The notes under the pieces are model-generated. The model ran no database searches, was not told the origin of the DNA, and saw nothing but the letters and a program-made list of their open reading frames with translations. From NCBI GenBank assembly GCA_011620585.1, contig WOYV01000120.1:1-64000 (forward strand): a stretch of DNA of 64,000 nucleotides, in the 5' to 3' direction. The DNA is from Draconibacterium sp. (GTDB lineage: Bacteria > Bacteroidota > Bacteroidia > Bacteroidales > Prolixibacteraceae). This document shows positions 10,780-53,740 of this stretch, piece by piece (the stretch's first letter is position 1; every line of letters starts with the position of its first letter). Both the position numbers and the translations under genes were made by a program.

Positions 10780-11535
10780 TTATTCCTGAAGAATGTCTTT
10801 TAAAATCCTCGGTTTTAAATACCAGACCAATCCCGCACTGGCAGCCACATATTTTTCGTAGTCGTTTGTACCGGCAATTCTTCCTTCAAAGTTGTTGTTG
10901 AAAAAAACTGCTGTTCCCTTCATCGTTATATCAAGATGCGGGGTAAGGTACCATTTTCCTGTCAGCCCGCAAGAGACTGATAAAGTATTGTTTTTTGGTA
11001 TTCCTTTATATGGGAACACGTGCATATTCCCGATTCCCGCCGAAGGGACAAAATCGAATTTCGTTTGTTTTTCCTTCCCGAACAGTAAATGTGCCAGGCT
11101 TGCATACAGATGGACAGAGACATTGGCGTAACGGATAAAATGACGATAAGTTCCGTCGGGATGAATGGTGACGTGACTTCTTACCGGATCCTGCTCAAAC
11201 AGGGATCCGTTGCCAGACGCGGCAGTATAAGTCCCTTCCGCTGTGCTGAAACCATTCAATGACAAACCTTCGGCTTTTATTTCCGCACCCCAGAAAGGAG
11301 AGATCCATTTCCCGGCCGCCACGGAAAAAAACGGAGTAAAACGATCGTTCCATTCCAGATTTTCCACATCGTACGAAAAAAGCGCCTGTGAGCCAATGGC
11401 TGCTTCACAATATACGTTATCAAAAAACGAACGGGTTCCGGAAGAATCGGGAATTGCGTCCTGAACTGCTTCGGTTTGGGCTGTTAATGCCAATGAAAAA
11501 AAGATCCCTGCAATAAAAAAAACACTATGTTTCAT
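10780..11535 (-). CDS. Outer-membrane beta-barrel protein, function unknown
   Basis: 251 residues. The start at 11535 gives a clean signal peptide (MKHSVFFIAGIFFSLALTAQ); the longer frame from 11574 is not signal-like. The mature chain alternates aromatic/hydrophobic and polar residues (AAGKWISPFWGAEIKAEGL, GKWYLTPHLDITMKG) and ends in a strand, SAGLVWYLKPRI. This suits an 8- to 10-strand outer-membrane barrel of the kind often found beside OmpA-like or surface-protein genes in Bacteroidia. It is the last gene of a leftward unit after the giant LamG protein and its companion lipoprotein, 70 bases behind the latter. A role in displaying or anchoring the giant protein, by analogy with PorP/SprF partners of T9SS cargo, is speculation. 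Confidence 0.6.
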   Translation of the reverse strand: MKHSVFFIAGIFFSLALTAQTEAVQDAIPDSSGTRSFFDNVYCEAAIGSQALFSYDVENLEWNDRFTPFFSVAAGKWISPFWGAEIKAEGLSLNGFSTAEGTYTAASGNGSLFEQDPVRSHVTIHPDGTYRHFIRYANVSVHLYASLAHLLFGKEKQTKFDFVPSAGIGNMHVFPYKGIPKNNTLSVSCGLTGKWYLTPHLDITMKGTAVFFNNNFEGRIAGTNDYEKYVAASAGLVWYLKPRILKDILQE

Positions 11536-11605
11536 TCTACTTGATTTACATTTAAAATTTGCCTCCAATCCCAATGTTCCTTTTCAAAAAAAAGACAATT
11601 TTTTT

Positions 11606-12040
11606 TTACAGATTTTCCAGTTCCATAATCACCGGTGAATCATAGGTTCCGTAGGTTCCGTCAATTTCAAACGGAATACTCTGTGTGGCTTGGTACAGGT
11701 ACGAAAGCCGGGCGTTGTAGTACCGAAAAACAATCGGCCCGTTTTCGGTATCAGACGCCCTGACGGTGACATAATAAACATTACCGCTGTTTTCCGATTT
11801 CACAAGTGTTCCTACACCACGACATTCGTCGTTGATAAACGCCGCTACCTTATCTCCGTCGGTGGCATAAATGTTTATATTTTCAGGGACAGCGACAATC
11901 GCTGTAAAACTATGAGGCAACTGTTCCGGAGCCAGGATTGACCAGTCGGGCGCCGGATAAGTCGTAAATGTTTCTTCATCTTTACTGCATCCGCCCACTA
12001 TGAGGAGTGCAAGCGCTACTATAATTTTCAACTGTTTCAT
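11606..12040 (-). CDS. Lipoprotein with a domain shared with the giant neighbour
   Basis: 144 residues. The signal peptide ends in a lipobox (LIVGGC, Cys18), so the protein is lipid-anchored. The mature part, from APDWSILAP to the end, is a single domain. It aligns by eye with the domain at about residues 2698-2815 of the giant protein encoded 2 bases upstream: both have APDW, then a (D)KIAAF/KVAAF turn followed by a Cys and Gly-Val/Gly-Val, an aromatic strand ending in V, an Asn/Gly-x-IVF strand, and IGF/IPF before a Gly-rich end and Pro. The shared domain and the 2-base spacing argue for joint function at the cell surface. No enzymatic motif is seen. Family name unknown to me. Confidence 0.7.
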   Translation of the reverse strand: MKQLKIIVALALLIVGGCSKDEETFTTYPAPDWSILAPEQLPHSFTAIVAVPENINIYATDGDKVAAFINDECRGVGTLVKSENSGNVYYVTVRASDTENGPIVFRYYNARLSYLYQATQSIPFEIDGTYGTYDSPVIMELENL

Positions 12041-12042
12041 CG

Positions 12043-15000
12043 TTATTGCTTTTCGATTTTAATGATATGAGAAACCCCTTCCACTTTTACCGCCACAAAG
12101 TACAAACCCGGAAGGAGGCTGTTACAATCGATTTGGGTGAGTGACTGTCCGCCAACGATATGGTTCCCTTTTTGCGCTATCAGTTTCCGTCCGGAAATAT
12201 CTGTTACCTGAATTTCGACAGGGCCTGTTTTTCCGGTAACCAACAGAATGTTCACTTCTGTACTTACCGGATTTGGATAAGCCGTCGCAATATCTCCCGA
12301 TTGAATGAATTTCAGCAATACCGGTTCCTCCAGCTTGCCGGTTACGGCGTTGGCGACAAAAGGAACCGGCGCTGCTGTTTTGCCCAAAATTTCGCCGTTT
12401 CGTTCGAGGGCGAACCACACCGGTTGAGTTGTATTTCCGGCAACGGTAATAAAATAGAACTGGCGGTAACCGATAGTCCGGAGCGTAACCTCGGAGCTCA
12501 GTTCGGAGCCGGTAAACGCCAGTATCCGATCTCCCGGTTGAGGTTCGATATCGCTAATCGCTACCAGGTTCATGTTTTGTGAAAAGGCTTTGTTAACAAA
12601 TTCGGCAGGCGGCATATTATCACTGCTTTTTGTACTCATGGTACCGTAACTGTCGGGGTATTTTAATGTGGCGCTGCTGTTTTCATTTCTGAAAATCATA
12701 TATCCTTTGCCTGGTTCAAGATAGGAAAGACTTCCTACCCAGCCGATATTTCCGGCAAACATGGCAAATTCGTCCTGCGATTTTATCACATCTTCTTCCC
12801 GGGCATCGTAGCCGGCCAGCGCCTCATCGAGTTTCAGCCGGACTGTCGGGAGATATCCGATGTAATTCCACTGGTTGCCCTTCACTGTAATATTTTCCGA
12901 TGAAGGCATTATCTTTTCACCGGCAATGGCAATCGTTTGGGAAAGCGAGGAAGAAACCTTATACATCAGGGTATTTCGCAGTATAAACGGATTCTCTTCC
13001 ATCCATCTCGACTGGGCGTCGGAATAATTGGCGCTCAGATTATCCGCTTCACTTTTAAAGAAATTGGAAGAGTTCCAGGTCATATTGGCGAGCAACTCAT
13101 TCAAACTGTTCAGGGAAGGAGACTTCACATTCATCGAAATCCAGTTCCAACCAGCAGACACATCAATATTCTGATAAATCAGGTTACCGGCGTCGAAAAT
13201 TTGCGGGACAGCCGGTGTTCCTACCGTGTTGTTGTTTGTAAAACCGATGTCATGTCCGGCATCAGCAAGATAAATCATACCGGCGCTGGCATCCCAGATT
13301 TTGAAAACAATCCCGTTTTTATTGGTTTCGTTGGAATAAACAATCAGAAATGCGTACCACATGTCGTTTCGCTCTTCATACTGAACATTGGCCACTCCGA
13401 TACATTTTCCGGCCGAGAAGGCGGCAATTTTATCCTCCGGATCTTTTGAAAAAATGTTGTTGATACGCAATTTGGCGTACACCTGCATGTTGTATTTGTA
13501 ATCGCCGGGATTGACCGCCCAGTCGGGAGCATCGCCCTTTGCCGTGACAGTAACATCGAGAACTTCGGAAACATTGTCGCTGTTTACCAGGTAAATCATT
13601 TCATTGTAGGTCCCGATATTGAGCCCTTCATCGATTTGGAAAGAAATACTGATAGAGGTATTTGGATCGATGGTCCCGGACGAAGGAGTGATTTTCATCC
13701 AAGAGGGATTGTTCCGGATATAAAAATTCTGAACCGAACCGCTTTTATTCACCGCCTGAACGGTAAATTCGGCCGACTGGTTGAGCGGTTTTGCAACGGT
13801 GATTTCGGTATCGCTCCAGCGAAGCATGTTCCGGTCGATGTATGCACTCCAGGTAATGGGCGAGCTGTTTTCATTTCCATTCACATCCTGAACGCCATCG
13901 ACGGTAAAAGTAACAATGGTTTTTTCAATCTTTTCAGGCGTTTCCTCCAGATAGACAATTAAAGCATCGTTGTTAACCACAAAGTCGAATTCAAGGTTGG
14001 AAACGGCCCCCTTGTCTTTTACGGGCGGGGTATCCGACACCTGTTCAGCATTGAAATTTTCGGCATCGGGAACTGTATTGGCCGGGTCGGGTTGAATTTT
14101 TTTATCGGCCAGCGTAAAATCAAGTTCCTGAAGCCCCTGCCATTCCTTATAATATTCAAAAGGATAATAGGCCAGCAATCCCATTTCGCTGCCATCGAGC
14201 CTGATGTTGTTACTTTCCTGTATCTGCTGTTCATATTTATATAGTTTCCAGATTCTTACCTCATCAATTGTTCCTTCAAAAAAGTTATCAAGTTTTAGGT
14301 TGGCGGCCTCTCCCCCGGCATACCAGGCGCGCGCACCGAGGTACATAAATGCCGAACCGATTCCGCCGAGTTCTTCGGAACTAAAATAACTGATCAGGTT
14401 TCCGTCGATGTAAATTTGTCCTCTTCCGATGGTCCTGCCAACATTTAATGCAAAATGGTGCCAGTTGTTGTCAAGGAAATCGCCATCGGCAGTTGCTGTA
14501 AAACCGTTGTTTGTAAAACAGAGTTTTCCGTTATTATTAAAAGCAATGGAGAAAAGGTTTTTTGAACCTCCGAGATCCTGCCCGTCGCCACGGCCGTTGC
14601 TAAAGAGGGTAGCGTTGGTTTGTCCCGGGCCGCCTTTGAACCAGAATTCGATGGTATAATCCATATTGTCGCGGATTACGGCAGAACTTCCTGTATTCAT
14701 TTTCACATAACTATCTGTTCCGTTGAACCGAACCGCCCTTCCTTCGGGTACCGACCAGGTACATCCGTTCATCAGGAGGTTGGCTCCGCGGGCTTTGTCT
14801 TCAGCCAGTTCACCCACTGCCCTGTCCATAGGATAATACGCCAGCAGCCCGGGTTCATTTCCGGAAAGTTGTGCCAGGCTGTTCACCTGCAGTTCGCCGG
14901 AAGTAAGCTGTTCATTCCATATCCTCACATTGTGCATCCGTCCGGTAAAAAAGTCAGCATTGCTCCGAATGTTCTTTCCGATGACCATATTGCCGATTCC

Positions 15001-18000
15001 GGCGTATGTTCCCGCAAAAACGTTGCTGATAACTTCACTGAAATTGTAGTATCCTGTGATATACCCTTCTTCGCTGAAAACAAAGGCTACATGCGCCCAG
15101 GAACCGGGTTCGAAAGGCGCCGGATTGTTGCTTGTTATGATGTTATCGCCCAGGAACAGTTGCAGACGGTTATCGCTGGTTAAGGCCATCCCGATGGACT
15201 CGTTGATATTTCCGTGATTGAACAAGGTGGCAGTTTGGGCCTGATCGGAATTGATCCACATTTCAACGGTAATATCCTTTCCGGCCATATTTTTTTCGAA
15301 TTCAGTTTCCATAAAATCGTTGATCCCGTCGAACCGGATGGAAACCGAGTGGTCGGTCATGGCTCCGTTGCGGATTCCGGTCACCTGAAAATTGTTTTTG
15401 GTCAGCAAACCTTCGGCTATGGGTTCATTAAAATTAAGCCGGATTTCATCCTGAATGGTTAAAATTCCGTTGGCTGGCTGGGGAGCTCCAAACAGGCGCG
15501 GAAGTAACATATCTTTTATTCCACTGGCCGTTGCCGAATAATTTTCAATTGCCTCATTGTTGATTAAACAAACTGACACGGCCCTTAAATCGTACCGCTG
15601 ATCGGGGAGATCATCCATTTTCAGCAGGTATTTGATGGTACCGGCATCACCCGGATCGATAAATCCGGCATTTCCATTTTCGAGCGCTTCGAGGTACAGT
15701 ACTGAGTCGCTGTAGTATTTCATCAGAGTTTTCCATCCCTCGTCAGATTCAGCGGATGATTTGTATTGTAATTTGATGTGGTTGAAACTGTCGTAATTCA
15801 CATCGAAACCGTTGAGGCGCACTTCCATATAATGTTTATCGACGCCGTCAACCGAAACAACGGGCAGTTTCGTATTGTAGGTCCATTTGTCACCGGGTTT
15901 TTCAACATCAACATTGGTACACGAGGGCGTATAATGAACGGTAACAGTCACGGAATCGTTGACACTTTCCTGACAACGGGATTGTAAAACCAGTTGCAAA
16001 TTATCATAATTCATTTCGGAACCCTTTCTTACTTCCAGCGTTTTTGGCAATGTACCGCCGGCCGGGACAAGGAAGTCGAGTCCGTTTCCGATGGGCGCCC
16101 CGTCGATAAACATTTTTGCCCCGGAAGGATTTGAAGCGCTGACAATTTTCAGGGTAAACCAATTATCCTGAGCAATTTCGGAGTTGTTTCGCAAATAAAG
16201 CGTAAAGTAGGCAGCTTCGCCGGAGGGTACATTTTCGACAAAATCGTTCTCTACTGCTATTTCGGGGACTTCAATCCTTTTGGTTGCCTGGTCGAGAATA
16301 TGCTGGCCGGGTTCAAAAAACCGGGTAACATTGGCATCTTCGTAAGGGCAGGAGGTTGCGCCCGCCTGTGTCCTGAAAACAAAAGTCGGATAAAAATCAT
16401 CGGTTTCATCTGAATTGCCAATGTCGGAATCTGCGTTCTCGTGCATCACATCCACACTGATATAGTCCTGGCTACTTTCTGCCAGTACAAAACCTTTGCT
16501 GTGATTTTGTGTTTCCGCATCCTCAAATTCCCCGCCATGAGTCGTGGTAAGCGACTCGTCGATTGACAGTTTAAATCCACTCCCCATGATGGTCACATCC
16601 GTTTCGTTTTTAAAATTGCCCCCAATCATAATATCAAAACTAACCGTTCCCGATTCGGTAAAAGAATAAGATTCAGAATACTGAACGGGCGAACCTCCCT
16701 GAAAGGAATAGTTTTGCAACAACTTGGCATTTATTTTTGCCTCCTCGTTCGCTTTCAGTTGTTTATACCAGTTGAAAATGGACTGGTTCAGATACAATAT
16801 GGTATCACTTCGTGTAAAATCGTTCCGTTCCGGAAAAATAACCCTGTAACTGGGCCCGTTAAATTCATCATCAGGGTCAGGATCGGTAGCGTTATTAAAA
16901 GCTTCATCAAAATTGCTTTTACCGAAGTTTGGATTGTCAGCCGGAAGATAAGAGACGTAAAAGACAGTGTCCAGATCGTTGGCAAGATTTTGCAGCAGGT
17001 TAAAATCGGCTTCATCTTTCTGCATCAAAAAATTGTTTCGCAAAGCCTCCATTTCGGGTAACAACCTGTTAATAATATGACTTTGCGGATAGGCAAACAA
17101 AGTCCCGAAGGTCTGTGCCAATCCCAAACCGGTTTGTTTTGCAATCAGCCAGCTTTGGGTCAGCGGGGTCAGCGACGTATAAACCTTATACCGGCCCGGA
17201 TTTTCGAGGTATTTTGTTTTGGAGATAATGCTTACACATTCGGTTGATCCATAGGCAATGTTGGTTGAATAACCTACAAATACGTCGGCATCTTCACCTA
17301 CATACGAAGGGTCGTCGCTGGTTTGAAAACGGGTGGTGGTGGTGGTAGTGGTTTCGGTTGTGTTACTTCCGCCTATTGATTCTTCATGGAGCACGCCCAG
17401 GGTAAAACCGGTACTTGTTGTGGCCGAATTAATGGTACCAACACCAATACCCGTGAAGGTAACCAATTCAGTTCCCAGTTTTTGTGTGAACAATTCAGAG
17501 CCGGCATTCCTAACTTCTCCTTTATAGGTTGAAGCCTCTTTCACCGAGACCCCCTTTTCAAGGTAAGAATAACTTTTTGATCCCGGAGGATCACGAAGGA
17601 CCATCAATACTTTATCAGGACCTCCGGTAATAAAGTCGCGACCGGTTTGAACCGACCCAATGATAATTCCGGTAAAAGCCCCGTCCCAATTGATAGAGGT
17701 TCTGTTTTCTTCGCTTCCGTAATAGATTTTGGCAGAAATTGCCCTGACAGCCGAAGTAAGTTCCGGATCGGTAACCTGAAAATCGTACAACGCAACCCCG
17801 ATACTGTCGGCATCCACCTGGGTGATTCCCGAAGTAGCAAGATTATTGGTAAACTCAATGGTGGCATCGCCGGTAGGAACCTCGTCGGCTGCTACCCCGG
17901 TTTTGGGCTTTCCATCAACTGAGAAATAGACATATTTCTCAAATACTTCTGCCTTAAAATGATATTGGTCGTTTTGCGTAAAAACCGGTTTCCCGAACAA

Positions 18001-21000
18001 GTAGTTCCCCCCGGGAATCAAATTGATTGTTACATCATCCAACCCCAGAGTTTTCATCACATATACGCTATCGCCAAAATAAGGCAGGGTTTTCCTGCTT
18101 TTATCCAACTGCGTGATTCGAACCGTTGGGGAGTATCGTTTAATAAATTTTTGCGCAGCATGAAAGTAAACGGTATCCGAATAGTTCGTTTTTTCCCAGA
18201 CCTCATTTACCAGAACAGAATCCTGGTATGTATAAATAGTTGAATTCGGTATCAGTTTTTGTGTCAAATCGAGGTCCTCACCCGAGCCGGGGATATCATC
18301 ATGCCCCTGAACATTTACCCGGACCGTAAAAGCAACGGGAATTACCTCTGCAATAAATTCACCGGTCTCATTATTGGGGAAAATGGTAATGGTTTCACCG
18401 GAATATCTTACACTGTCAGTTTTTGACCATCCGGTTCCTTTTTTAGCCGAAGGGACCAGATGTTCGTAGATAATGGTTGTATCCCTATTTACAATTTGAT
18501 AGGCTGGGTTTTTAATGGTTAATGTAACCGTTGCGCCATCGGCCAGATTATTTTCGGAGAGAGAGAAACCTACCGGGTAGGAATCCTGCAGAGCGCCACC
18601 GGCCACACGTCCAATGTATTTTACCTTTGTTATATCGCTCAGTTTAAGCCCGAGCACTTCATCCTGGTAATTCAGATCCACCAGGTAGCTGTCGGTTATC
18701 CGCCCGCCGTTTGCAAAAATATGGTTGGCCTTTTTGGCAATAACTTCGTGTGAACCAACGGGCACCTGAATTTCAAATTCGCCTTTGGAGTCCGACATTA
18801 AAACCGTTCCGTTTTTCCCCATAGCCGTTATACCATCGATGGTAAAGGAAACTCCTTCCACCGGTACCGTTCCTCCCTGGTAGGTGACTGTACCCGTAAC
18901 CCGAAACGATGATTTGTCGATAAAGTTGACCGTAAAGGTTTCAGAACCTTCGCCGATAAAACGTACTTCTTCCTGGGCTTCGAACTGATGAATTCCGAGG
19001 CGGGGAATAATGGTGTACAGCGTTCCGTTGCCAACGTAAGGAACGGCCCTGATAGCATAGGAACCATCTGTCCCGGTCACGCCCTTGTATCCCAGTTGTT
19101 CGTTTGTCGGTATTCTTGTTTCATTTAAAACAGCTCCATTTAATCTTCCGTGATTTTCGTTATAATCGCTGTTTTTGTATGAACGATCATAAAACTCTTC
19201 ACCGGTTGCATAATTAAAACTCCAGTAAGCCATTAATCCTGTTTCGCCGCCGGTAATATACCGGTTGTAATCTCTTGCAATTTCTTTCGCGGTAAGGGCG
19301 CGGGCCCAGACCCTGACTTCGTCCACTGCCCCGGAATAATTTCCGCCAAGGCTGGCCGGATTGTTGTTCCCTGTTACTATTGCAGAAGTTTTGGCGCTGT
19401 CTGTACGTTCGCCATTGATATACACAAAAAGGCTGTCGCCGCTGAATACACCGGTAACATGGACAAAACCGGAACCTTCGAGAAACCCGTTTACCGGAAC
19501 CACCGAATTGAGCGTTTGATCGCCTACTGAAAAATAGACAAAATTGTCCGTCAGCCCCAACTCGTACATCCCCGGTTTTGTGACTATTTTTTGTGTTCCG
19601 GAGAAAGCATCCGGAGCAATCCAGGTTTGCACAGTAACAGATTCCGTGCTGGTCTCAAGAAAAGACGTATTGTTTATCGTTGCAGTCTGACCGGCATCGA
19701 AAACAAGGCTTCTGCCCGAAATTCCTTCCCCGGATTCCAGGCGCACCTCCACATTTTCTTCAGCCTGGCCATTCTCGAAAGTTACCCTTCCGTAAATATC
19801 TCCGGTCGGGGTGCGAAAGCCGTAGGTCAACAACGTATCGGTATAAATGGTTACATCGGTGCACTTGGTAACCCCGATGATCTGATATTCATAAATTTCT
19901 CCCGGATTCGACTGTCCGTCGCTGAACTGATACGATTCGGAACCGATGGTCCCGGTTACCTGGGCAATTTGTTTAAAAGCATTTCCCGACTGAAATATCC
20001 TGTTTTTCACCGAGAAATAATCAATGGGCATTCCATCGGTTTCCCACGATAACTCTATCCGGTCGGAAAAATAACCTTTGGAAGCATTGATAGAATACAA
20101 CTCTCCCGACTCCAGCGGAACCACATTGTCGCCGTTGACCGATAAAGCTTCCTGGGTAACATAATTTGTATTGCCGGGTTTTACATAAATTTTATAGGTA
20201 AACTTATTACACATCAGGAAAAGCTCTTCCGAAAAAGAACGTTTGGTTAACGAATCAGCGGGAACCACGATCACCTCTTTTGCTCCTCCGCTGGTCAGAT
20301 TATACCGTTCAATGATAACCGAGGAGTTGGCCGTCCAAACGTTTCCGCTGTTATAATTCCATTTGATTTGTGCTACATTGGTTTTGGCGTTAAACTGAAC
20401 ATTGGCCGACGCTACGTATTTATGAGCCATGGATAACTGAACGGATGTAACTTCGTCCAAATCCCATCCCCATTCAGCCTGAGTTTTGGTGCGCCGAATC
20501 CGGTAATAATAGGTGCCGTTAAGATTTTCTGTGGATGTTTGGTTGAGGTATGAATAAGTACTTGTTGCCTGATTATAATCCACTTTCCCTACATTAACCG
20601 GATTATTAAATTCAATATTGTCGGCGCGCTGAATCTCAAACTGGTCGCCCGAAATGTAGTTGGCGCCCGTTGCGGCGTTTACATCCCAGGTAAGCGATAC
20701 ATCTCCGTTGGCAAGTTGTGTTGCTTTAAAATTTTTTGCCTGCGGATATGCAGGAAGTGTAATGTTACTGCTTTTTACAACCGTCCGGTTGCAGTACCCC
20801 AGCGTATATCTCACAAAAACGGTTTTTGACTGTTGGCTTTCCGTAATATCCACGGGAATAGAAACTGTACTTCCGGTTAATGTAGAGTAGGCGCCGCCGA
20901 TAGAATATTCATATTTGGAATATACCCCGGTTGGCGAAACGGTTGCATTTACATTGTATTTCCCCGGAGTAGCTGAAAAAGTATAATTCAAAGAGGGAAC

Positions 21001-21624
21001 AGGGAATGTAAGTCCCGAAAAACTCTGGGAAGTACTTGTTTCCCCATAATCGCCTCCTCCATCTTCATCTACATAATAGCTCACCACCACATCCAAAGAA
21101 CTATCGTCGAGAAGCCAGGTGGGTAAACAAACCCTGATTTGTGCCCAGGTTGTACTACCATCTTTGGTTATATTAACCTGAGTATATGAATCAGCGTCAA
21201 AACTTGAAGATACTGCATTAATCGATTGCCAGTAATCTCCTTCCCATGTTTTATGGATATCAACATTAACCTCAGACGTGGTCCTTTGCGCCCGGACCCA
21301 ATACCAATCAGCGCCATCCTGCCCATCGCCCTCGTCATGAAATGACCAGAACCGGAGGAGCGTAGAACCATTCACGGTTATTTTACCTGCTCTCGTACTG
21401 GTTGGGGAAATCCCTTCATCGTTTCCATCATCATCGTAAATGGGAATCTTCAGATTGATATACCCGTTTTTCAGGTCATTGTTGTCCATGGTCACTTTCG
21501 ACGCCGGGATAGCCTGGGAATATACTTTCCCCACACCCACAAATCCAATACACACAATTAACAACAACAACTTATTAAAAATCAACCAACACAATTTGGG
21601 ATTGGGCATTTTCAACGATTTCAT
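12043..21624 (-). CDS. Giant secreted LamG-domain surface protein with T9SS sorting domain
   Basis: 3193 residues with signal peptide 1-37 (ends KVYSQ); start 21624 is chosen over 21696 because it opens the signal peptide. In order: beta-rich N-terminus, fibronectin-III-like region (about 300-620), carboxypeptidase-regulatory-like fold near 603, first LamG/jelly-roll domain (about 636-828), second regulatory-like fold (about 906-970), a long central region of unknown fold, two adjacent LamG domains (about 2091-2293 and 2296-2488), a BACON-like Ig domain (about 2605-2695, PSWMKITPSSGTI), one copy of the domain seen in the downstream lipoprotein (about 2698-2815), a more diverged copy (about 3003-3103), and a type A T9SS C-terminal domain (about 3113-3193, AYPNPVSTEVNI ... 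PGLYFVAVK). The protein should pass the outer membrane by T9SS and stay on or leave the surface. The LamG domains suggest glycan or protein binding; no catalytic motif is seen. First gene of a three-gene unit. Confidence 0.85.
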   Translation of the reverse strand: MKSLKMPNPKLCWLIFNKLLLLIVCIGFVGVGKVYSQAIPASKVTMDNNDLKNGYINLKIPIYDDDGNDEGISPTSTRAGKITVNGSTLLRFWSFHDEGDGQDGADWYWVRAQRTTSEVNVDIHKTWEGDYWQSINAVSSSFDADSYTQVNITKDGSTTWAQIRVCLPTWLLDDSSLDVVVSYYVDEDGGGDYGETSTSQSFSGLTFPVPSLNYTFSATPGKYNVNATVSPTGVYSKYEYSIGGAYSTLTGSTVSIPVDITESQQSKTVFVRYTLGYCNRTVVKSSNITLPAYPQAKNFKATQLANGDVSLTWDVNAATGANYISGDQFEIQRADNIEFNNPVNVGKVDYNQATSTYSYLNQTSTENLNGTYYYRIRRTKTQAEWGWDLDEVTSVQLSMAHKYVASANVQFNAKTNVAQIKWNYNSGNVWTANSSVIIERYNLTSGGAKEVIVVPADSLTKRSFSEELFLMCNKFTYKIYVKPGNTNYVTQEALSVNGDNVVPLESGELYSINASKGYFSDRIELSWETDGMPIDYFSVKNRIFQSGNAFKQIAQVTGTIGSESYQFSDGQSNPGEIYEYQIIGVTKCTDVTIYTDTLLTYGFRTPTGDIYGRVTFENGQAEENVEVRLESGEGISGRSLVFDAGQTATINNTSFLETSTESVTVQTWIAPDAFSGTQKIVTKPGMYELGLTDNFVYFSVGDQTLNSVVPVNGFLEGSGFVHVTGVFSGDSLFVYINGERTDSAKTSAIVTGNNNPASLGGNYSGAVDEVRVWARALTAKEIARDYNRYITGGETGLMAYWSFNYATGEEFYDRSYKNSDYNENHGRLNGAVLNETRIPTNEQLGYKGVTGTDGSYAIRAVPYVGNGTLYTIIPRLGIHQFEAQEEVRFIGEGSETFTVNFIDKSSFRVTGTVTYQGGTVPVEGVSFTIDGITAMGKNGTVLMSDSKGEFEIQVPVGSHEVIAKKANHIFANGGRITDSYLVDLNYQDEVLGLKLSDITKVKYIGRVAGGALQDSYPVGFSLSENNLADGATVTLTIKNPAYQIVNRDTTIIYEHLVPSAKKGTGWSKTDSVRYSGETITIFPNNETGEFIAEVIPVAFTVRVNVQGHDDIPGSGEDLDLTQKLIPNSTIYTYQDSVLVNEVWEKTNYSDTVYFHAAQKFIKRYSPTVRITQLDKSRKTLPYFGDSVYVMKTLGLDDVTINLIPGGNYLFGKPVFTQNDQYHFKAEVFEKYVYFSVDGKPKTGVAADEVPTGDATIEFTNNLATSGITQVDADSIGVALYDFQVTDPELTSAVRAISAKIYYGSEENRTSINWDGAFTGIIIGSVQTGRDFITGGPDKVLMVLRDPPGSKSYSYLEKGVSVKEASTYKGEVRNAGSELFTQKLGTELVTFTGIGVGTINSATTSTGFTLGVLHEESIGGSNTTETTTTTTTRFQTSDDPSYVGEDADVFVGYSTNIAYGSTECVSIISKTKYLENPGRYKVYTSLTPLTQSWLIAKQTGLGLAQTFGTLFAYPQSHIINRLLPEMEALRNNFLMQKDEADFNLLQNLANDLDTVFYVSYLPADNPNFGKSNFDEAFNNATDPDPDDEFNGPSYRVIFPERNDFTRSDTILYLNQSIFNWYKQLKANEEAKINAKLLQNYSFQGGSPVQYSESYSFTESGTVSFDIMIGGNFKNETDVTIMGSGFKLSIDESLTTTHGGEFEDAETQNHSKGFVLAESSQDYISVDVMHENADSDIGNSDETDDFYPTFVFRTQAGATSCPYEDANVTRFFEPGQHILDQATKRIEVPEIAVENDFVENVPSGEAAYFTLYLRNNSEIAQDNWFTLKIVSASNPSGAKMFIDGAPIGNGLDFLVPAGGTLPKTLEVRKGSEMNYDNLQLVLQSRCQESVNDSVTVTVHYTPSCTNVDVEKPGDKWTYNTKLPVVSVDGVDKHYMEVRLNGFDVNYDSFNHIKLQYKSSAESDEGWKTLMKYYSDSVLYLEALENGNAGFIDPGDAGTIKYLLKMDDLPDQRYDLRAVSVCLINNEAIENYSATASGIKDMLLPRLFGAPQPANGILTIQDEIRLNFNEPIAEGLLTKNNFQVTGIRNGAMTDHSVSIRFDGINDFMETEFEKNMAGKDITVEMWINSDQAQTATLFNHGNINESIGMALTSDNRLQLFLGDNIITSNNPAPFEPGSWAHVAFVFSEEGYITGYYNFSEVISNVFAGTYAGIGNMVIGKNIRSNADFFTGRMHNVRIWNEQLTSGELQVNSLAQLSGNEPGLLAYYPMDRAVGELAEDKARGANLLMNGCTWSVPEGRAVRFNGTDSYVKMNTGSSAVIRDNMDYTIEFWFKGGPGQTNATLFSNGRGDGQDLGGSKNLFSIAFNNNGKLCFTNNGFTATADGDFLDNNWHHFALNVGRTIGRGQIYIDGNLISYFSSEELGGIGSAFMYLGARAWYAGGEAANLKLDNFFEGTIDEVRIWKLYKYEQQIQESNNIRLDGSEMGLLAYYPFEYYKEWQGLQELDFTLADKKIQPDPANTVPDAENFNAEQVSDTPPVKDKGAVSNLEFDFVVNNDALIVYLEETPEKIEKTIVTFTVDGVQDVNGNENSSPITWSAYIDRNMLRWSDTEITVAKPLNQSAEFTVQAVNKSGSVQNFYIRNNPSWMKITPSSGTIDPNTSISISFQIDEGLNIGTYNEMIYLVNSDNVSEVLDVTVTAKGDAPDWAVNPGDYKYNMQVYAKLRINNIFSKDPEDKIAAFSAGKCIGVANVQYEERNDMWYAFLIVYSNETNKNGIVFKIWDASAGMIYLADAGHDIGFTNNNTVGTPAVPQIFDAGNLIYQNIDVSAGWNWISMNVKSPSLNSLNELLANMTWNSSNFFKSEADNLSANYSDAQSRWMEENPFILRNTLMYKVSSSLSQTIAIAGEKIMPSSENITVKGNQWNYIGYLPTVRLKLDEALAGYDAREEDVIKSQDEFAMFAGNIGWVGSLSYLEPGKGYMIFRNENSSATLKYPDSYGTMSTKSSDNMPPAEFVNKAFSQNMNLVAISDIEPQPGDRILAFTGSELSSEVTLRTIGYRQFYFITVAGNTTQPVWFALERNGEILGKTAAPVPFVANAVTGKLEEPVLLKFIQSGDIATAYPNPVSTEVNILLVTGKTGPVEIQVTDISGRKLIAQKGNHIVGGQSLTQIDCNSLLPGLYFVAVKVEGVSHIIKIEKQ

Positions 21625-21709
21625 AATTATTGATTTAATATATTCGGAAAAATTAACGATCGTCAAACCGAAACCGCCAATCAAACGATAGTTCATCTTA
21701 TTGTTTTTA

Positions 21710-21738
21710 CAAATTTATTATCATAAACCGGAAGTCAA
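21710..21738 (-). promoter_or_regulatory. Promoter of the giant LamG protein unit
   Basis: Read leftward, TTG (21738-21736), 18 bases, then TAAATTTG (21717-21710). This matches the Bacteroidota primary sigma pattern TTTG-N19-TAnnTTTG closely. Transcription would start near 21703, leaving about 80 bases of leader before the chosen start at 21624. The -33 box lies inside a small inverted repeat, CCGGA/TCCGG. Confidence 0.6.
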
Positions 21739-21827: not shown

Positions 21828-22070
21828 TCATTTATCTGTAAAAAAAAAAACTAAAAAAAGATCAAAAGCATGAATATAGCGGAACAACCCGGCAGTTGTA
21901 TTTCTTTCCAGTTTTTGACGGATGTGTTTACGATGGTTGGGCGTATGTTTTGAGATAAAAAGTTCTTCTGTGATATCTACAACACTAAAATTTTCGGCTT
22001 TTTTCTTTTCTTTTGAATTGAATAAAGGGTTCAGTTTTGGTTCTTTTACCTCAAGATTTGATTCATCCAT
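21828..22070 (-). pseudogene. Remnant of a LuxR-type HTH regulator
   Basis: 80 codons. From SVVDITEELFISKHTPNHRK through RQKLERNTTAGLFRYIHAFDL the chain matches the C-terminal half of a LuxR/GerE-type DNA-binding domain (recognition helix and last helix) as found in Bacteroidota regulators. The piece before it (FNSKEKKKAENF) looks like the start of the same domain with a handful of residues deleted, Pro replaces the usual Val in HTVNNHRK, and the end runs on past the normal terminus (FLVFFFTDK) through a poly-A tract. No receiver or sensor domain precedes it. I read it as a decayed regulator fragment; a small expressed orphan cannot be excluded. Confidence 0.55.
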
Positions 22071-22146: not shown

Positions 22147-22500
22147 TCAAATTTTCAAATTTCCCAGTTGACCGATAATAACCATCTGACTAACTTTCCC
22201 GAGAGCCAGTTCGTCTCCATCCGCCAGTTCAAAACTACCGCCCACTCCCTGTAAAATATATTCAAAAGGTTCATTTACAAAACAAAGGATCCCCTTTACA
22301 CGGTAGGTTTGATTTTTATAAATGTCGAGCGTGTAGGAAAGCCATTCTGAAAATTGTTCTTTATCCAGAGGTTCGTCAAACATCAATAATTGTGTTTTCA
22401 ATGTGTGATCGGGAAACAAGTTTCTGTTTGGGTTAAGACACTGTTTAAAAATCTCTTTTAAAATAACCCGTCCCTCTTTTGGGGCGTTTTTATAAAACTT
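22147..22500 (-). pseudogene. C-terminal fragment of a CobW-type GTPase
   Basis: The frame encodes EPLDKEQFSEWLSYTLDIYK, then YRVKGILCF and QGVGGSFEL, which is the CobW C-terminal domain of G3E metallochaperone GTPases. An ATG is lacking at the front: the obvious start is TTG at 22419, yet the frame stays open and protein-like upstream to about 22500 (KNAPKEGRVILKEIF). The GTPase half with its P-loop and zinc-binding CxCC motif is absent, and alaS ends at 22605. So this is the 3' remnant of a gene whose first 200 or so codons were lost. It is next to the LuxR remnant, making 21.8-22.5 kb a decay zone. The upstream limit given is approximate. Confidence 0.6.
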
Positions 22501-22551
22501 TGGCTTAATGTTGTAAAGCGCTGATCCTGTCCCTGTAACTGTCGATACATG

Positions 22552-22581
22552 GAACCGCCTCTTTAATAAGGGGGGCGGTTC
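22552..22581 (-). terminator. Hairpin after alaS
   Basis: An 8-bp perfect stem, GAACCGCC (22552-22559) with GGCGGTTC (22574-22581), 24 bases past the alaS stop on its strand. There is no T-run after it, so it is either a weak terminator or an mRNA 3'-end stabiliser. The stem also falls in the region where the CobW fragment loses its reading frame. Confidence 0.45.
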
Positions 22582-22604
22582 TTTCCATCGTTCAACAAAA
22601 CCAA

Positions 22605-25226
22605 TTACTGCAAAAATGAAAGCGCTTTTTCGATGGCTGCGTCCAACCCTTCCGTTTTTTTGCCGCCTGCGGTTGCATAAAATGCTTGTCCGCCACCGCC
22701 GCCCTGAATTTCCTTACCGGCTTCGCGAACAATCTGCCCTGCATTCAATCCTTTTTCTTCCACAATGTTGTCGGCAATCATTACGGTAAGGTTGGGTTTG
22801 CCCCCAATTTCAGCACCCAGTACCAAATAAAGGTTCTCTATCTCACCTTTTAATTGGAAAGCCAAATCTTTAATTAGTGCAGCATTGTCGAGGTCAATTT
22901 TTTGCGCAATAATATTTACACCGTTTTCCTGCAACACTTTGCTTTTTAGGGTTGCCTTGGCAATTTTCATGCTTTCGCGCTGGAAATTATCGATCTGTTT
23001 CGAAAGTTCAGAGTTTTGTTGCAGTAGCGAGGTTACACTTCCCAATACATCTTTCGAACCTTTAATCATTTCCCGAATATTTTTAAGAATATTGAGTTGC
23101 TCGTTGATATATTTTTCGGCATGAGCGGCGGTAATGCCCTCAATCCTCCGAACCCCGGCAGCAATGGCACTTTCCGAAACGATTTTAAAAATTCCGATCT
23201 GGCCGGTAGCTTCCACATGGGTTCCGCCACAAAGTTCGAGCGACTTGCCAAATTTTATGGTGCGTACCGCTTCGCCGTATTTTTCGCCAAACAACATCAT
23301 TGCACCGGCAGCTTTGGCTTCTGCAATCGGAGTATCACGATTTTCTTCGCGCACCGAGTTTTCACGAATTTTCTGGTTCACCAACAATTCAACCTGCTCA
23401 ATTTCTTCGTCGCTCATTTTCTGAAAATGCGAGAAATCGAAACGAAGGTGGTCGGCATTTACCAGCGAACCTTTTTGTTCGACATGTTTACCAAGTACCT
23501 CACGCAAAGCCGAATGCAGCAAGTGAGTAGCAGTGTGGTTATTGGCAATATTGGTACGACGTTGCACGTTGACTACCGCCCGGAAATATTCAGTCGGGTT
23601 TTCAGGAAGTTTTTCTACCAGGTGCACAATCAGGTTATTCTCTTTTTGAGTATCAAAAATCGGGGTTTTTATTCCTTCAAACTCGAGGTAACCCGAGTCA
23701 CCGACTTGTCCACCCGATTCGCCATAAAAAGGGGTCTGGTCGAATACCAACTGGTAAAACGTTTTTTTCTTTTGCATCACCCTGCGATAGCGGGCGATAC
23801 GGATTTCAGCCTCTAAACGATCGTAACCGACAAACTCGGTTTTTTCTATTTTACGAAGTTCTACCCAATCGTCGGTTTCCTGTGCGGCGGCGTTTCGGGA
23901 GCGGCTTTTCTGCGCTTCCATTTCAACAGTAAAAGCTTTTTCGTCAACACCCAGACCATTTTCTCGGGTAATCAACTCGGTTAAATCAAGCGGAAATCCG
24001 TAGGTGTCGTATAAAACGAAGGCATCTTTCCCATCAATTTCTTTCAGTCCATCTGCTTTCGCCTTGATCATCAGCTCGTCGAGCAGTTTAATCCCGGTTG
24101 ACAGCGTGCGTAGAAAAGATTCTTCCTCTTCCTTAATCACCTTTTCAACCAGGTTTTGCTGGCTTACCAATTCGGGAAAAGCTTCTCCCATTGTATTTTT
24201 CAGAACTTCGATCAGGCGATAGATATTTGCTTCTTTAAAACCCAGGAAAGTATAACCGTAACGAACTGCGCGGCGCAAAATCCGGCGGATCACATAACCG
24301 GCTTTGTTGTTCGATGGCAACTGGCCTTCGGCAATGGCAAAAGCCACGGCACGCAAGTGGTCGGCGATCACACGCATCGCAATGTCGGCCTTCTCATCGT
24401 CGCCGTAGTTTTTATGGCTCAGTTTGGCAATCTCAGCAATGGTATTCTGGAAAACATCGGTATCGTAGTTCGAAGTTACCCCTTGCAACACCATACATAA
24501 ACGTTCGAAACCCATTCCGGTATCTACATGTTTATCGGGCAGTTCTTCCAAGTCTCCATTAGCTTTTCGGTTGAACTGGATAAATACAAGGTTCCATATT
24601 TCGATCACCTGCGGATGATCCTTGTTAATGAGCTCGCGGCCGGGAATTTTATCGATTTCCGGCTGTGGGCGCAGGTCGACATGTACTTCTGAACACGGAC
24701 CGCACGGACCGGTGTCGCCCATTTCCCAGAAATTATCTTTTTTGCTTCCGTTCAAAATTCGTTCGCCCGGCAGATATTGTTCCCAGTAACCGGCAGCCTC
24801 ATTGTCGCGTTCCTGGTTGTCGTCAGCGCTTCCTTCGAAAACGGTAGCATACAAACGTTCAGGATCAATTCCCATCCGGGTTACCAGGAATTCCCAGGCC
24901 CAGTCGATGGCATCTTTCTTAAAATAATCGCCAAACGACCAGTTTCCCAACATTTCGAACATGGTATGATGATAGGTATCCAGCCCCACTTCTTCGAGGT
25001 CGTTATGTTTCCCGGATACACGTAAACATTTCTGGGTATCCGCTACACGGCTCCATTTTACGGGTTCGTTTCCCAAAAACCAATCCTTAAACTGGTTCAT
25101 CCCCGCATTGGTGAACATCAGTGTCGGATCGCCTTTTACTACCATGGGCGCCGAATTAACAATCTGATGCTGTTTCTCTTTGAAAAAGTCAAGAAAGGCT
25201 GCGCGTATCTCTTTAGAAGTCTTCAT
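22605..25226 (-). CDS. alaS: Alanine--tRNA ligase
   Basis: 873 residues, the normal full length. It charges tRNA-Ala with alanine in the cytoplasm. The class II catalytic domain starts at once (residues 1-20 with [10 protein letters not shown], then [15 protein letters not shown] with motif 1 elements). The editing domain shows [16 protein letters not shown] near residue 560 and [13 protein letters not shown] near 660; together these give the zinc-binding HxxxH ... CxxxH set that removes mischarged Ser/Gly. The C-terminal oligomerisation (C-Ala) domain ends [16 protein letters not shown]. It is divergent from an M23 peptidase gene, an arrangement common in Bacteroidota. No frameshift or missing motif was seen. 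Confidence 0.97.
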
Positions 25227-37940: not shown

Positions 37941-38416
37941 GATTTTTGCAATAAAACTATAGCAGTAACACTGATCCCTTCTTCACGACCTTCAAAACCC
38001 AGTTTCTCGGTAGTCGTTGCTTTTACCGAAATACAATCGATATCAACACCAAGTACCTCAGCCATAATTTCTTCCATCTGTGGAACAAAAGGGGTTAACC
38101 TGGGTTGTTGCGCACTTATTGATGCGTCGAGATTTACAAGTTCGTAACCTTTTCCCTTCACCAGATCGTAGGACCGCTTTAGTAAAATTTTGCTGTCGAT
38201 GTTTTTAAATTCTGCCGAATTATCAGGGAAATGAGTTCCGATATCGCGAAGTTTTAAGGCTCCCAGCAATGCATCACAAATAGCGTGTATCACCACGTCG
38301 CCATCGGAATGTGCCACTGTTCCCTTATGATGGGGAATTAAAATACCGCCCAGCCACAAGCTTTCTCCTTCGGCCAAACGGTGTACATCGTATCCTATCC
38401 CAACTCTGAAACTCAT
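37937..38416 (-). CDS. ispF: 2-C-methyl-D-erythritol 2,4-cyclodiphosphate synthase
   Basis: 159 residues, normal for the family. It makes the cyclic diphosphate intermediate of the MEP isoprenoid route in the cytoplasm, as a homotrimer. Metal ligands Asp10 and His12 are in GIGYDVHRL; VAHSDGDVVIHAICDALLG holds the third His and the family signature, and IGTHFPD the next. Thr-Thr-Glu near 130 (KATTTEKLGFEGR) is the substrate-binding end. Its start overlaps the porV stop by one base (TGATG), so it is coupled to the type IX genes, a known arrangement in Bacteroidota though the two functions are unrelated. Confidence 0.95.
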   Translation of the reverse strand: MSFRVGIGYDVHRLAEGESLWLGGILIPHHKGTVAHSDGDVVIHAICDALLGALKLRDIGTHFPDNSAEFKNIDSKILLKRSYDLVKGKGYELVNLDASISAQQPRLTPFVPQMEEIMAEVLGVDIDCISVKATTTEKLGFEGREEGISVTAIVLLQKS

Positions 38417-39591
38417 CAGCGTTGTTTTCCAAAAGCATCGATATCAAACGAAAGCGAGAATCTCAGTGTATTTTCGAGCGGGTGATTTCGTTGCGTTGGC
38501 AACAGGTATGAAAAATCAAGCGCAAAAACGTTCATCTTCAAACCGGCACCGGCTGTCAGAAACTGACGGTTACCCTTGTTCTCGTTTTCATAAAAATAAC
38601 CGGCACGTATTGCAAACTGTTTGTTATACCAATATTCGACACCAGCAGACCAGGTGATTTCCTGGAGTTCTTCTTTAAAACCTCCCGGCGCATCACCAAA
38701 CGATTTAAAGATACCTTCGATCACACCAATATCAGAGTTTATACCGCCAGCCCAAATTACATCGCCTGTTCCGTAGTTAGTTGAATCAATCGGAGGCGTG
38801 GGGACCAATAATTTATTGGCTTCTACCGAAAACGAAAAGCTATTGTAATCATCAAGTTCCATGGTATACGAAGCCCCTAATTTCAGGGTCGTCGGAATAA
38901 AATCCTTTACTTCGCCATCGGTGTACGAAATTTTAGCTCCGATATTCTGAATATTAACACCGGCGTTGAAAATATTGTTTTTTCTATTTACCCGTAATTC
39001 CTTGTGATAATAAAACGCAACGTCGGCGGCAAACGAATTGCCGGCATGTGTTTCCACCCCGTTTACCAACTGACCTCCTGTAAGGTCGGAACGAATATAA
39101 CGAACGGCTACGGCACCCGACCAGGTTTCTGAAAGTAACCTTGAGTATGCCAGGTCAATTGCAAATTCATTCGGGCTTTGCTGGCCCATAAATTCTCCCT
39201 GATCGGACGTAAAAATGATATCGCCCAACGTGAAATAACGAAGCGAAGTACTCAGTCCCTGAACATCATCAAGCTTTTTATAAAAGGTCAAATATGCCAG
39301 GTTGATGTCGTCAACAAGGTTACGTAACCAGGGCGAATACGAAAGTCCAACACCCATGTCGCTCTCCATAAATACATATTTGGCAGGGTTCCAGTGTTGT
39401 GAATTTACATCCGAACTGGTACCTACGCCAACATCACCCATACCGCCTGCACGCGAATCGGGAGTTATGGCTAAAAACGGAACTGCGGTTGTTATGGTGT
39501 TCGCACCCGATAAAGTTCCCTGTGCAAGTATGTTTTGAGAAGCTAACACTGTCAGGATCAAAACAAAAAGTAAACGAAAAGATCTCTTCAT
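38416..39591 (-). CDS. porV: Type IX secretion outer-membrane protein PorV
   Basis: 391 residues with signal peptide MKRSFRLLFVLILTVLASQNILAQ (1-24); start 39591 was chosen for it. The 14-strand outer-membrane barrel of the FadL-like PorV family begins with AVPFLAITPDSRAGGMGDVG and QHWNPAKYVFME, the conserved entry, and finishes LRFSLSFDIDAF. PorV takes T9SS cargo from the SprA/Sov translocon and passes it to the PorU sortase. A perfect -7 box lies 23 bases upstream. The order porU, porV and, divergently, gldJ is the same as in Flavobacterium johnsoniae. The giant LamG protein in this window should be a client. Confidence 0.95.
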   Translation of the reverse strand: MKRSFRLLFVLILTVLASQNILAQGTLSGANTITTAVPFLAITPDSRAGGMGDVGVGTSSDVNSQHWNPAKYVFMESDMGVGLSYSPWLRNLVDDINLAYLTFYKKLDDVQGLSTSLRYFTLGDIIFTSDQGEFMGQQSPNEFAIDLAYSRLLSETWSGAVAVRYIRSDLTGGQLVNGVETHAGNSFAADVAFYYHKELRVNRKNNIFNAGVNIQNIGAKISYTDGEVKDFIPTTLKLGASYTMELDDYNSFSFSVEANKLLVPTPPIDSTNYGTGDVIWAGGINSDIGVIEGIFKSFGDAPGGFKEELQEITWSAGVEYWYNKQFAIRAGYFYENENKGNRQFLTAGAGLKMNVFALDFSYLLPTQRNHPLENTLRFSLSFDIDAFGKQR

Positions 39592-39613
39592 AATATTTTT
39601 AGAATTGAGCGTG

Positions 39614-39621
39614 CAAATATA
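39614..39621 (-). promoter_or_regulatory. Possible -7 box ahead of porV
   Basis: Read leftward TATATTTG, an exact match to the Bacteroidota -7 consensus, 22 bases before the porV start. No TTG is found 19 bases further upstream, so it may be a secondary promoter within the porU-porV unit. Confidence 0.35.
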
Positions 39622-39700
39622 AAACAATTGTTTTTGTATGCCTATTATTATACCTAAGTGAACGGATGTTTTTGGTAAAAATTTTGTTCGCCTGATAAAT

Positions 39701-42700: not shown

Positions 42701-43435
42701 GTTCCATGTAGTTGCGCCCGGTGCATAAAAGAAAAGGCATTGCTCTCCCCCGTTTGTATTTCGCCACACGGCACATTGTTCGAGGTCGTCGTAAACGATT
42801 TCGCCCGGATTTTCGGATAATGCCAGTGCCCCACTGCCATATACTTTTACGTTTACCGGATCATTAAACCCCCAGTCGCTAAGTTTTGAATACGGGATTT
42901 TGTAAACCCCCTTTTTTGAGGTGCGAATCTTAATCCATTTCCCGGAACTAAGTACAGATGAACTTTTCCAAACATTAGCAACTATTTCACTTTTTAGTTG
43001 AGGAACCGGAATTTTACGTACATCAAATGCCTTTAACCGAAATATTTTCCCGTCCTGTTTGATGATGGCAGGCAGGCTCATTTCTTGTTTCCAAATGTCG
43101 CCTGATTTCATAAAATGAGATTTTACAGCCAGTTCTTCAGGAACCAAAGCAAGAATTTCTTCTGGCAGAATTTCCGTGATTTCTTCGTATTCGGGGCTTT
43201 GTACAACGATTTTAACGTTCTGCTGTTCATATCTGCTTTCGTACAAACGGGTATAAACCGGCAGTTCCGGACCACTTTGTGGGAAACCCGGATTCTCAAG
43301 CCAGGCCACAAAACCATCACCTTCTTCATAATTGCCAATTTCAGCCGACCAGTCAAGAAACACCCGTTCTGTCTGCACATCGCTGTTTACAAAGCTTACC
43401 AGAATTACAAAAATCAGCAGTATACTATTTTTCAT
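39701..43435 (-). CDS. porU: Type IX secretion sortase PorU
   Basis: 1244 residues, signal peptide MKNSILLIFVILVSFVNS. It is the C25 (gingipain-type) cysteine protease that removes the C-terminal sorting domain from T9SS cargo at the cell surface and attaches the cargo to lipopolysaccharide. The caspase-like catalytic domain spans about 530-880. The His is in IGHANERF near 760 and the Cys in TATCEFSRFDG near 791, with GGGIGLFSTTRVVYATANF following; both catalytic residues are intact. Beta domains come before and after it, and the end carries its own sorting-domain-like repeat from NYPNPASEYTYFVIEH, as PorU does in Porphyromonas. It is first in the leftward run with porV, 109 bases upstream of it. 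Confidence 0.95.
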   Translation of the reverse strand: MKNSILLIFVILVSFVNSDVQTERVFLDWSAEIGNYEEGDGFVAWLENPGFPQSGPELPVYTRLYESRYEQQNVKIVVQSPEYEEITEILPEEILALVPEELAVKSHFMKSGDIWKQEMSLPAIIKQDGKIFRLKAFDVRKIPVPQLKSEIVANVWKSSSVLSSGKWIKIRTSKKGVYKIPYSKLSDWGFNDPVNVKVYGSGALALSENPGEIVYDDLEQCAVWRNTNGGEQCLFFYAPGATTWNPGVDGNFRHKNNDYTSSGYFFLSENGGNKEPELIPSTIDPVTHSVNSFDDYAFIENDIYNLLPLGSGKQWFGEKFSNGTIRSYSFTPTDVESGSEANIFVNAAARSYNASSMQASGNGTTLGTLSFSAVNTNDTYGLYANEQNARFTTVISNGTLKVDLKYSATNSNAEAWNDYLELNYRRILIAGDEPLFFRDVASAGKGNVVEFSIENAGATTKIMDVSDLNNPKEISGTLNDVTFKFRRPADELQEYVVFKTGGDFPVPTLVGEVENQNLHALTSPEFLIISHPDFMGPAEDLANFHREYDGMTVDVVNAEKVYNEFSSGSKNATGIRNFVKMFYDRGSTLKYVLLFGDGSYDNKNIKNGGHNFIPTYQSDNSLTPTSSFVTDDYFVMLDADESVYIGAIDLGIGRIPASTKYEAQLVVDKVKRYYKPEALGSWRNIITFIGDDEDSRLHMKQSEELADSVNQNNKAFLTDKIYFDSYVQEVTPSGERYTDVNTAINECVRDGVLILNYIGHANERFLAHERVLDISDINSWTNANTMPIFVTATCEFSRFDGDDTSAGEYILLNPNGGGIGLFSTTRVVYATANFKLSKSFYSVIFDNDQNGEHYRMGDVMRLAKINIGNSVNKRNFSLLADPALKLSYPKYKVVTETINSKDAETEKQTIGALQKVTVSGYIADAFGNQIDDFNGTLIPTVYDKEMKMKTLGNSGETPFEFKVRENIIYKGKASVKNGSFTFSFVVPKDISYSIGNGKILYYADNGEEDAHGAYENFEIGGNGSIVSDNEGPDIELFLDSENFKPGDKTGANPILLANLSDENGINTVGTGIGHDITAVLDNDYSNVSILNNYYQAGSDDYTSGSIAYQLKNLLPGQHTLTLKAWDVANNSSEVEIEFEVTGDLLIRDITNYPNPASEYTYFVIEHNQNDASLDVIFDIYDRSGRSVDRFQTSVGSSAGKSNPVRWDLSESKVAATSGVYIYRAIVKNSDGIISSKSGKMIIAR

Positions 43436-53667: not shown

Positions 53668-53689
53668 CAGCGTTAAAACATTACATTTG
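53659..53689 (+). promoter_or_regulatory. Promoter of the GH3-serine hydrolase gene
   Basis: TCTG at 53659-53662 (one off TTTG), 19 bases, TACATTTG at 53682-53689. Transcription from near 53697 would leave out the ATG at 53642, which supports the start at 53741 with its signal peptide. The -33 box overlaps the first codons of the divergent namZ gene. Confidence 0.55.
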
Positions 53690-53740
53690 CGTACGAAGAT
53701 AGATTTTAAATTTTTTAAAAAGCAATCGATTCAAAGAAAA

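Follow-up and report, generated by a model that had tools for sequence, protein, structure and literature searches.

A giant type IX secretion protein of Bacteroidota shares a domain with the product of the next gene, whose predicted anchor differs between lineages

Introduction

Giant proteins of the type IX secretion system (T9SS) are common in Bacteroidota; their retention and combination at the cell surface are understood in few cases. A locus of Draconibacterium sp. (contig C6 of a genome of 3.9 Mb), in which the gene for such a giant is followed on the same strand by genes for a lipoprotein and an outer-membrane barrel, raises this question: do the three products form one surface device, and what would join them? 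The DNA that was analysed, a stretch of 64,000 nucleotides, is called the window below, and loci carry L numbers.

Results

The open reading frame of the giant (Table 1) has its likely start at Met25, directly followed by a stretch that resembles a signal peptide by eye. Laminin_G_3 matches the protein in three stretches (whole-protein E 1.6e-49) with bit scores of 73.8, 61.1 and 74.9 at a curated cut-off of 27.6, which makes them LamG / concanavalin-A-like lectin domains, and a CarboxypepD_reg match at residues 933-989 lies under its cut-off. At the C-terminus, Por_Secre_tail (PF18962) covers residues 3140-3209 above the Pfam cut-off (E 4.2e-9) and the type A sorting model TIGR04183 reaches E 8.8e-9 (35.2 bits, cut-off 23), this being the one tail model that matched in the NCBIfam scan, with no type B tail; together with the signal peptide, judged by eye, the sorting domain marks the giant as a predicted T9SS type A cargo. 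The giant is conserved along its entire length (72% identity to its relative in Tangfeifania diversioriginum, L031), and 11 full-length giants align with a mean column identity of 37%, the first ~520 residues being variable and the remainder conserved.

These matches bear out a preliminary description of the locus, which had reported three LamG domains and a type A sorting domain, and the coordinates agree with its statement that the lipoprotein gene lies 2 bases behind and the barrel gene 70 bases further, which makes this a tight gene cluster. Its view that the central region belongs to no recognised family also held, as residues 951-1935 scanned alone gave zero Pfam families at E<=0.5.

Table 1 Features of the giant-lipoprotein-barrel locus in the window
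Feature	Position	Strand	Details
Outer-membrane barrel	10780-11535	-	251 aa from ATG; 264 aa from TTG at 11574
D-domain lipoprotein	11606-12040	-	144 aa, lipobox VGGC; 2 nt after the giant's stop
Giant T9SS protein, open reading frame	12043-21696	-	3217 codons from first ATG
Giant, likely start (Met25)	21624	-	3193 aa; same start as in the preliminary description
T9SS type A sorting domain	12046-12279	-	From giant residue 3140; Pfam and NCBIfam
D2	12310-12618	-	Giant residues 3027-3129; diverged copy; weak match here (i-E 1e-3), stronger in relatives
D1	13162-13554	-	Giant residues 2715-2845; homologous to the lipoprotein
BACON-like Ig domain	13603-13818	-	Giant residues 2627-2698; Pfam BACON_2, E 1.2e-5
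LamG 3	14221-14724	-	Giant residues about 2325-2492; Pfam
LamG 2	14890-15321	-	Giant residues about 2126-2269; Pfam
Conserved core	16207-17769	-	Giant residues 1310-1830; amphipathic beta segments near 1394-1435 and 1681-1715
LamG 1	19276-19692	-	Giant residues 669-807; Pfam
Promoter-like TTG-N18-TAAATTTG	21710-21738	-	Candidate; fits the Bacteroidota promoter pattern

The window's genome holds 25 T9SS tails above the Pfam cut-off. PorV (38419-39711) lies in the window beside a Peptidase_C25 protein (39704-43435; the pair spans 38416-43435, minus strand), which we read as PorU-like, so that T9SS type A machinery would be encoded within the window. The window also encodes a fusion protein (53642-56677, plus strand) that joins glycoside hydrolase family 3 to a beta-lactamase-family domain.

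In front of the giant, TTG-N18-TAAATTTG at 21738-21710 fits the Bacteroidota promoter pattern; the full pattern was not found in the inspected upstream stretches of L031, L033, L092, L093 and L032, which leaves the candidate promoter plausible, and a scan with the sigma-70 consensus gave 29 sites vs 25.1 in shuffles, which is uninformative. Further upstream lies the remnant of a LuxR-type regulator (21858-21977, minus strand), of which the C-terminal part alone is left; it is 63% identical to the final ~40 residues encoded by the LuxR-family gene that stands intact (231 aa) in L031, 5 nt in front of the giant. An open frame at about 22150-22638 (minus strand), downstream of alaS and with no start found, looks by eye like what we take to be the C-terminal part of a CobW-type protein. 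At other loci the giant is preceded by a secreted protein of ~290 aa that has a phage Tail Collar domain (L035, L038, L039, L084, L085, L101 and L104; the domain was found in 7 of 10 scanned upstream proteins), the window having no such protein, and L126, L128, L132 and L133 have longer upstream proteins with similar beginnings by eye.

The giant and the lipoprotein have a domain in common, here called D. BLASTP aligns the lipoprotein with giant residues 2723-2839 (31% identity, E 1e-9) and, weakly, with residues 3003-3130 (E 0.001); judged from these alignments the lipoprotein is a free copy of D, which the giant carries twice, just ahead of its sorting tail. Eight columns are invariant across three lipoproteins and 11 D1 copies (the window's giant plus ten others), and no convincing match of D was found in Pfam or NCBIfam, scanned with the lipoprotein, or in the PDB, searched with the profile (best E 0.59). 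A partnership of the giant with a lipid-anchored protein had been proposed in the preliminary description and stands, the shared domain having escaped notice there.

The D profile has two matches in the window's genome, both in this locus, and among 84 D matches in 25 giant-bearing genomes, sorted manually, 74 lie in the giant or the next gene and 10 elsewhere. Genomes of the order without a detected core have D matches in 15 of 265 cases and core genomes in 26 of 30; as the giant itself contains D, this co-occurrence is in part a given and was not used as evidence for pairing. Adjacent pairs in which D near a C-terminus is followed by D at an N-terminus also occur without a detected core (L110:3088-13559 and L114:1530-9535), and some partners contain several D domains (four in L128:639-6476, two in L116:11501-12592, three in L104:17490-19667).

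Giants and D-bearing neighbours form pairs. For the pairing count, giants were chosen by the core alone and the next gene was read in retrieved flanks, with a readable 3' flank required, so that the count covers the part of the core matches whose flanks were retrieved. Directly downstream on the same strand, a D-bearing secreted protein follows 32 of the 47 D-bearing giants (24/36 in the first locus set and 8/11 in the second), each time with D at the partner's mature N-terminus, and none of the ten giants without detected D (Fisher's exact p 8e-5, to be read with loci of one genome or lineage not being independent, as with L099/L100, L097/L122, L126/L127, both L052 ORFs and L040/L047, which share genomes). 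At L117 and L041 the partner was masked by antisense ORFs; it came to light when the frames were read one by one, and both loci count as paired. L125, whose D match is very weak (E 0.23), was counted as having none. The 15 D-bearing giants without an adjacent partner are those of L094, L098, L100, L103, L121, L122 and L127 and all eight short D-bearing ones of the first set (L043, L044, L045, L049, L050, L051 and two in L052). Named organisms with a pair are T. diversioriginum (L031) and Flammeovirga kamogawensis (L104, with a gap of 2 nt).

Left out of these 57 giants were nine that run off their contig (L032, L034, L084, L088, L095, L096, L102, L120 and L123), ORF pieces of counted giants (the first ORF of L037 and the second of L134), and the loci chosen through their D match (L105-L114). 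Among the latter, L105-L109 contain giant and partner (L107 being the same locus as the counted L134), and L112 a giant end without partner; L111 is limited to partner and barrel, and L113 to a D protein.

The evolutionary distances of partners and giants correlate (r 0.64-0.72; Mantel D1-partner r 0.72), which, next to the reference correlations of partner with core (r 0.69) and D1 with core (r 0.83), stays within the expectation from common descent and gives no contact-specific signal; co-evolution was dropped as evidence of D contact, as the correlation is no higher than for the core.

The anchor of the partner varies. In the window, SKDEE after C18 of the lipoprotein has the C-X-K-(D/E)2-X form of the motif for surface-exposed Bacteroidota lipoproteins, a form that the consulted part of PMC5080379 gives as the optimal surface-export signal in Capnocytophaga, and the lipoprotein would thereby lie on the surface side. 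The motif also fits L092 (QKEEV) and L093 (QKDEM) and partly L031 (SKDTD) and L033 (KDDDK); L099 does not fit. Lipoprotein-type partners, with the lipobox judged by eye, number 11 (window, L031, L033, L092, L093, L099, L105, L111, L119, L132 and L133), and a homologue of the window's barrel follows seven of them and is absent behind four. In a tail survey of the 23 partners in the alignment, seven matched the NCBIfam type B model; by elimination (nine others unmatched, L037 cut by its contig) and from the tail sequences these are L035, L040, L083, L085, L086, L087 and L089. All seven are followed by a PorP/SprF gene, TIGR03519 (PorP/SprF) matching 7 of 12 scanned third-gene proteins. Type A tails above the NCBIfam cut-off occur on partners L038, L039, L042, L090, L097, L104 and L106, behind which no homologue of the window's barrel was seen by BLAST; the tail match of L091 is under the cut-off, and L036 (masked) and L101 have no tail match. 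Many partners are large T9SS cargo proteins containing repeats, cadherin-like or of other kinds, and a cadherin family was matched in 7 of 23.

The barrel gene begins 70 nt past the lipoprotein gene, or 31 nt with the TTG start. Pfam places an OmpA domain at the C-terminus of its relatives in L033, L092 and L093, and the L105 relative aligns with L092 across both parts, which adds a fourth; a TpgA model is among the weak OmpA-domain matches of three barrel relatives. The barrels of the window and L031 have no Pfam match to the OmpA peptidoglycan-binding domain, no OmpA remnant was found downstream of the window's barrel, and NCBIfam gives it no PorP/SprF match at E<=1. Since the longer relatives have the OmpA domain and the window's barrel lacks it, the latter would be the membrane part of an OmpA-like protein. 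In the loci compared, the barrel belongs to one lipoprotein lineage; elsewhere the third gene encodes PorP/SprF or something unrelated.

The same three-gene order, which the preliminary description had proposed to look for in other genomes, recurs in L031, L033, L092 and L093 and on the broken contigs of L105 (with the C-terminal part of the giant) and L111 (with the giant on another contig). Because this order recurs and the giant is conserved over its full length, the locus is more than a chance arrangement. The view that the three genes encode one surface device stands for giant and partner, given the 32 of 47, and does not for the trio: the recurring unit is the pair, and the barrel is confined to one lineage. 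As a universal device the trio fails, with homologues regularly lacking the downstream genes (no partner behind ten of ten D-less and 15 of 47 D-bearing giants).

Matches to the central 1141 residues of the giant were obtained in 23 of 101 near genomes, and the core, about 500 residues without known fold, is widespread: counting the genome of the window each time, its profile finds matches in 30 genomes among 295 of the order and in 12 among 392 of the phylum. The core is also matched in two plasmid records, from Flammeovirga and Aureibacter, and no core relatives were found among viral contigs. In a tree of giant residues 2060-2720, lipoprotein-type giants group with L100 (99/97), and type B labels need two changes and type A labels three. 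The lipoprotein pairs of L132 and L133 come from genomes that share no more than the phylum with the window's, and their core matches are far weaker than those of the lipoprotein group, so that more than one origin of the lipoprotein form is possible. The D tree sets D2 and the lipoprotein partners each apart by a well-supported branch and D1 by a weakly supported one; CTD-bearing partners fall into two groups that form no single clade with the lipoprotein partners, many forks being weak; a single origin of all partners is not supported, since the non-lipoprotein partners are split.

Against known families and solved structures (PDB), neither core nor D gave anything convincing. No Pfam family was supported across 42 core members, Aerolysin matching one and CEL_III_C two of them (E about 0.01). 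The best PDB matches of the core profile of 42 rows are beta-pore-forming proteins (1w3a, E 0.0098; 7y79, E 0.013), further matches being the unrelated chain 3lag (E 0.18) and CEL-III (E 0.96), and the core segments matched to pore formers show the highest beta-type amphipathic moment. With its letters reversed, block 2 of the core gave 35 matches (E 0.024-2.4), each to a protein named as a toxin, an insecticidal protein or a hemolytic lectin, vs 7 in true order, three of which are T-cell receptors; block 1 alone gave no matches in either letter order. As the reversed control matches at least as well as the true order, the likeness to pore formers probably reflects composition and alternation pattern, and pore-former homology was dropped; we conclude that the two core segments probably resemble amphipathic beta hairpins in pattern only.

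The sugar-binding modules appear to interrupt other domains. The stretches 1629-2093 and 2575-2825 lie about 480-505 residues apart in the window's giant and their counterparts 35-62 residues apart in L043, L044, L045, L049 and L051, the extra piece being LamG 2 and LamG 3. At this place L132 has an unbroken Big_5 domain (E 2.9e-10), as has L044, weakly, and from the alignment LamG 2-3 interrupt a Big_5-like Ig domain of the giant. LamG 1 seems to be seated within a carboxypeptidase-regulatory-like domain that runs on without LamG in relatives, and CBM_6 sits between two halves of D1 in L044 and L049. Because the places of LamG and CBM_6 differ among relatives, we consider these modules to be insertions in loops of a stalk.

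Discussion

The giant and its D-bearing neighbour suggest that Bacteroidota join and anchor giant surface proteins in a way not yet described. We give an even chance to their forming a two-part T9SS surface adhesin whose components are coupled through D, with exchangeable anchors. The giant would be a long stalk of Ig-like domains with sugar-binding modules in its loops (three LamG here, from which glycan binding may be expected), exported by T9SS as type A cargo, as its tail and the T9SS genes indicate, and near its C-terminus the D1-D2 module would immediately precede the sorting tail. The product of the next gene, with D at its mature N-terminus, would then be coupled to the giant at the cell surface by docking of D on D, which we infer from the shared domain and the pairing. 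As its anchor, the partner would have a surface-exposed lipid moiety here; in other lineages a sorting tail would take this role, of type A or, accompanied by a PorP/SprF barrel, of type B. A second anchor is not strictly needed, because the giant has its own type A tail. Behind the lipoprotein an OmpA-derived barrel is encoded, whose longer relatives could reach the cell wall and tie the complex to it; the weakest step is the barrel's membership of this complex, for which the gene order in seven loci of one lineage speaks. More tentative, and in our estimate somewhat likelier to fail than to hold, is the full proposal that D is an undescribed like-with-like coupling domain joining the giant stalk to the next gene's product, that lineages swapped the partner's anchor (lipid, type A, or type B with PorP/SprF) and kept the coupling, and that the window's lineage added an OmpA-derived barrel tying the adhesin through the outer membrane.

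D might instead be a generic surface Ig-like module, the pair having arisen by local duplication and been kept for co-regulation, with both products acting independently, either as two adhesins or as an adhesin and an unrelated lipoprotein. D pairs outside the core family (L110, L114), D matches in genomes of the order without a detected core (15/265) and the lack of contact-specific co-evolution agree with this; however, the partner goes with D in the giant (32/47 vs 0/10), D is rare outside pairs in giant-bearing genomes (10 of 84 matches), and the lipoprotein form contains little beyond D, which would leave D no other job, so that we regard independent action as rather unlikely. That D2 adjoins the sorting tail, that the partner gene directly follows the giant and that shuttle barrels of the PorP/SprF kind are known to gather type B cargo and retain it (consulted parts of PMC9143113 and PMC12618676) would also suit a partner that is a biogenesis factor, gripping the D1-D2 end during or after T9SS translocation to cap it, release it or hand it over to PorV/PorU, with no lasting anchor; yet many partners are large T9SS cargo with repeats (cadherin in 7/23), which fits adhesins better than chaperones, and we consider such a role improbable. 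Very improbable is a lectin-guided pore former, in which the core would be a membrane-inserting beta-hairpin module and the lipoprotein would protect the producer: the best PDB matches of the core and the strong amphipathic moment of the matched segments point that way, but no E-value convinces, the reversed letters match as well or better, and partners are frequently not lipoproteins.

As to known systems, cohesin and dockerin are modules that couple proteins, and a D domain coupling two exported proteins would work alike; unlike in that case, both sides here carry the same domain, and no sequence relation was found for D. The giants annotated in F. kamogawensis and Aureibacter tunicatorum as 'LamG-like jellyroll fold domain-containing protein' belong to the same family, the former with a D partner 2 nt behind and the latter with no adjacent downstream partner, and neither a function nor a partner nor D is mentioned in their annotation. 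SprB-SprF and PG1035-PorP likewise combine a surface or giant T9SS cargo with an outer-membrane barrel encoded nearby as shuttle and anchor (consulted part of PMC9143113), and in seven relatives of our locus a PorP/SprF gene stands behind a type B partner; in contrast, the giant here is type A-tailed, the window's barrel is not PorP/SprF, and the description of those systems in that part of the source includes neither D nor a D partner. In the Acinetobacter trimeric autotransporter AtaA, the hold of a giant adhesin is reinforced through its periplasmic anchoring partner TpgA, which is OmpA-like and reaches the cell wall (consulted part of PMC13082670), whereas its secretion route differs, LamG and D are absent, and the window's barrel lacks the OmpA domain. 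No description of the trio's composition (LamG with type IX secretion) was found among open-licence papers, in line with the preliminary description, which knew of no such system.

For the surface biology of Bacteroidota, the D domain common to giant and neighbour, together with the three anchors of the neighbour, offers a means to search for such pairs by sequence; should D prove to couple proteins, it might also be used to display proteins on Bacteroidota cells.
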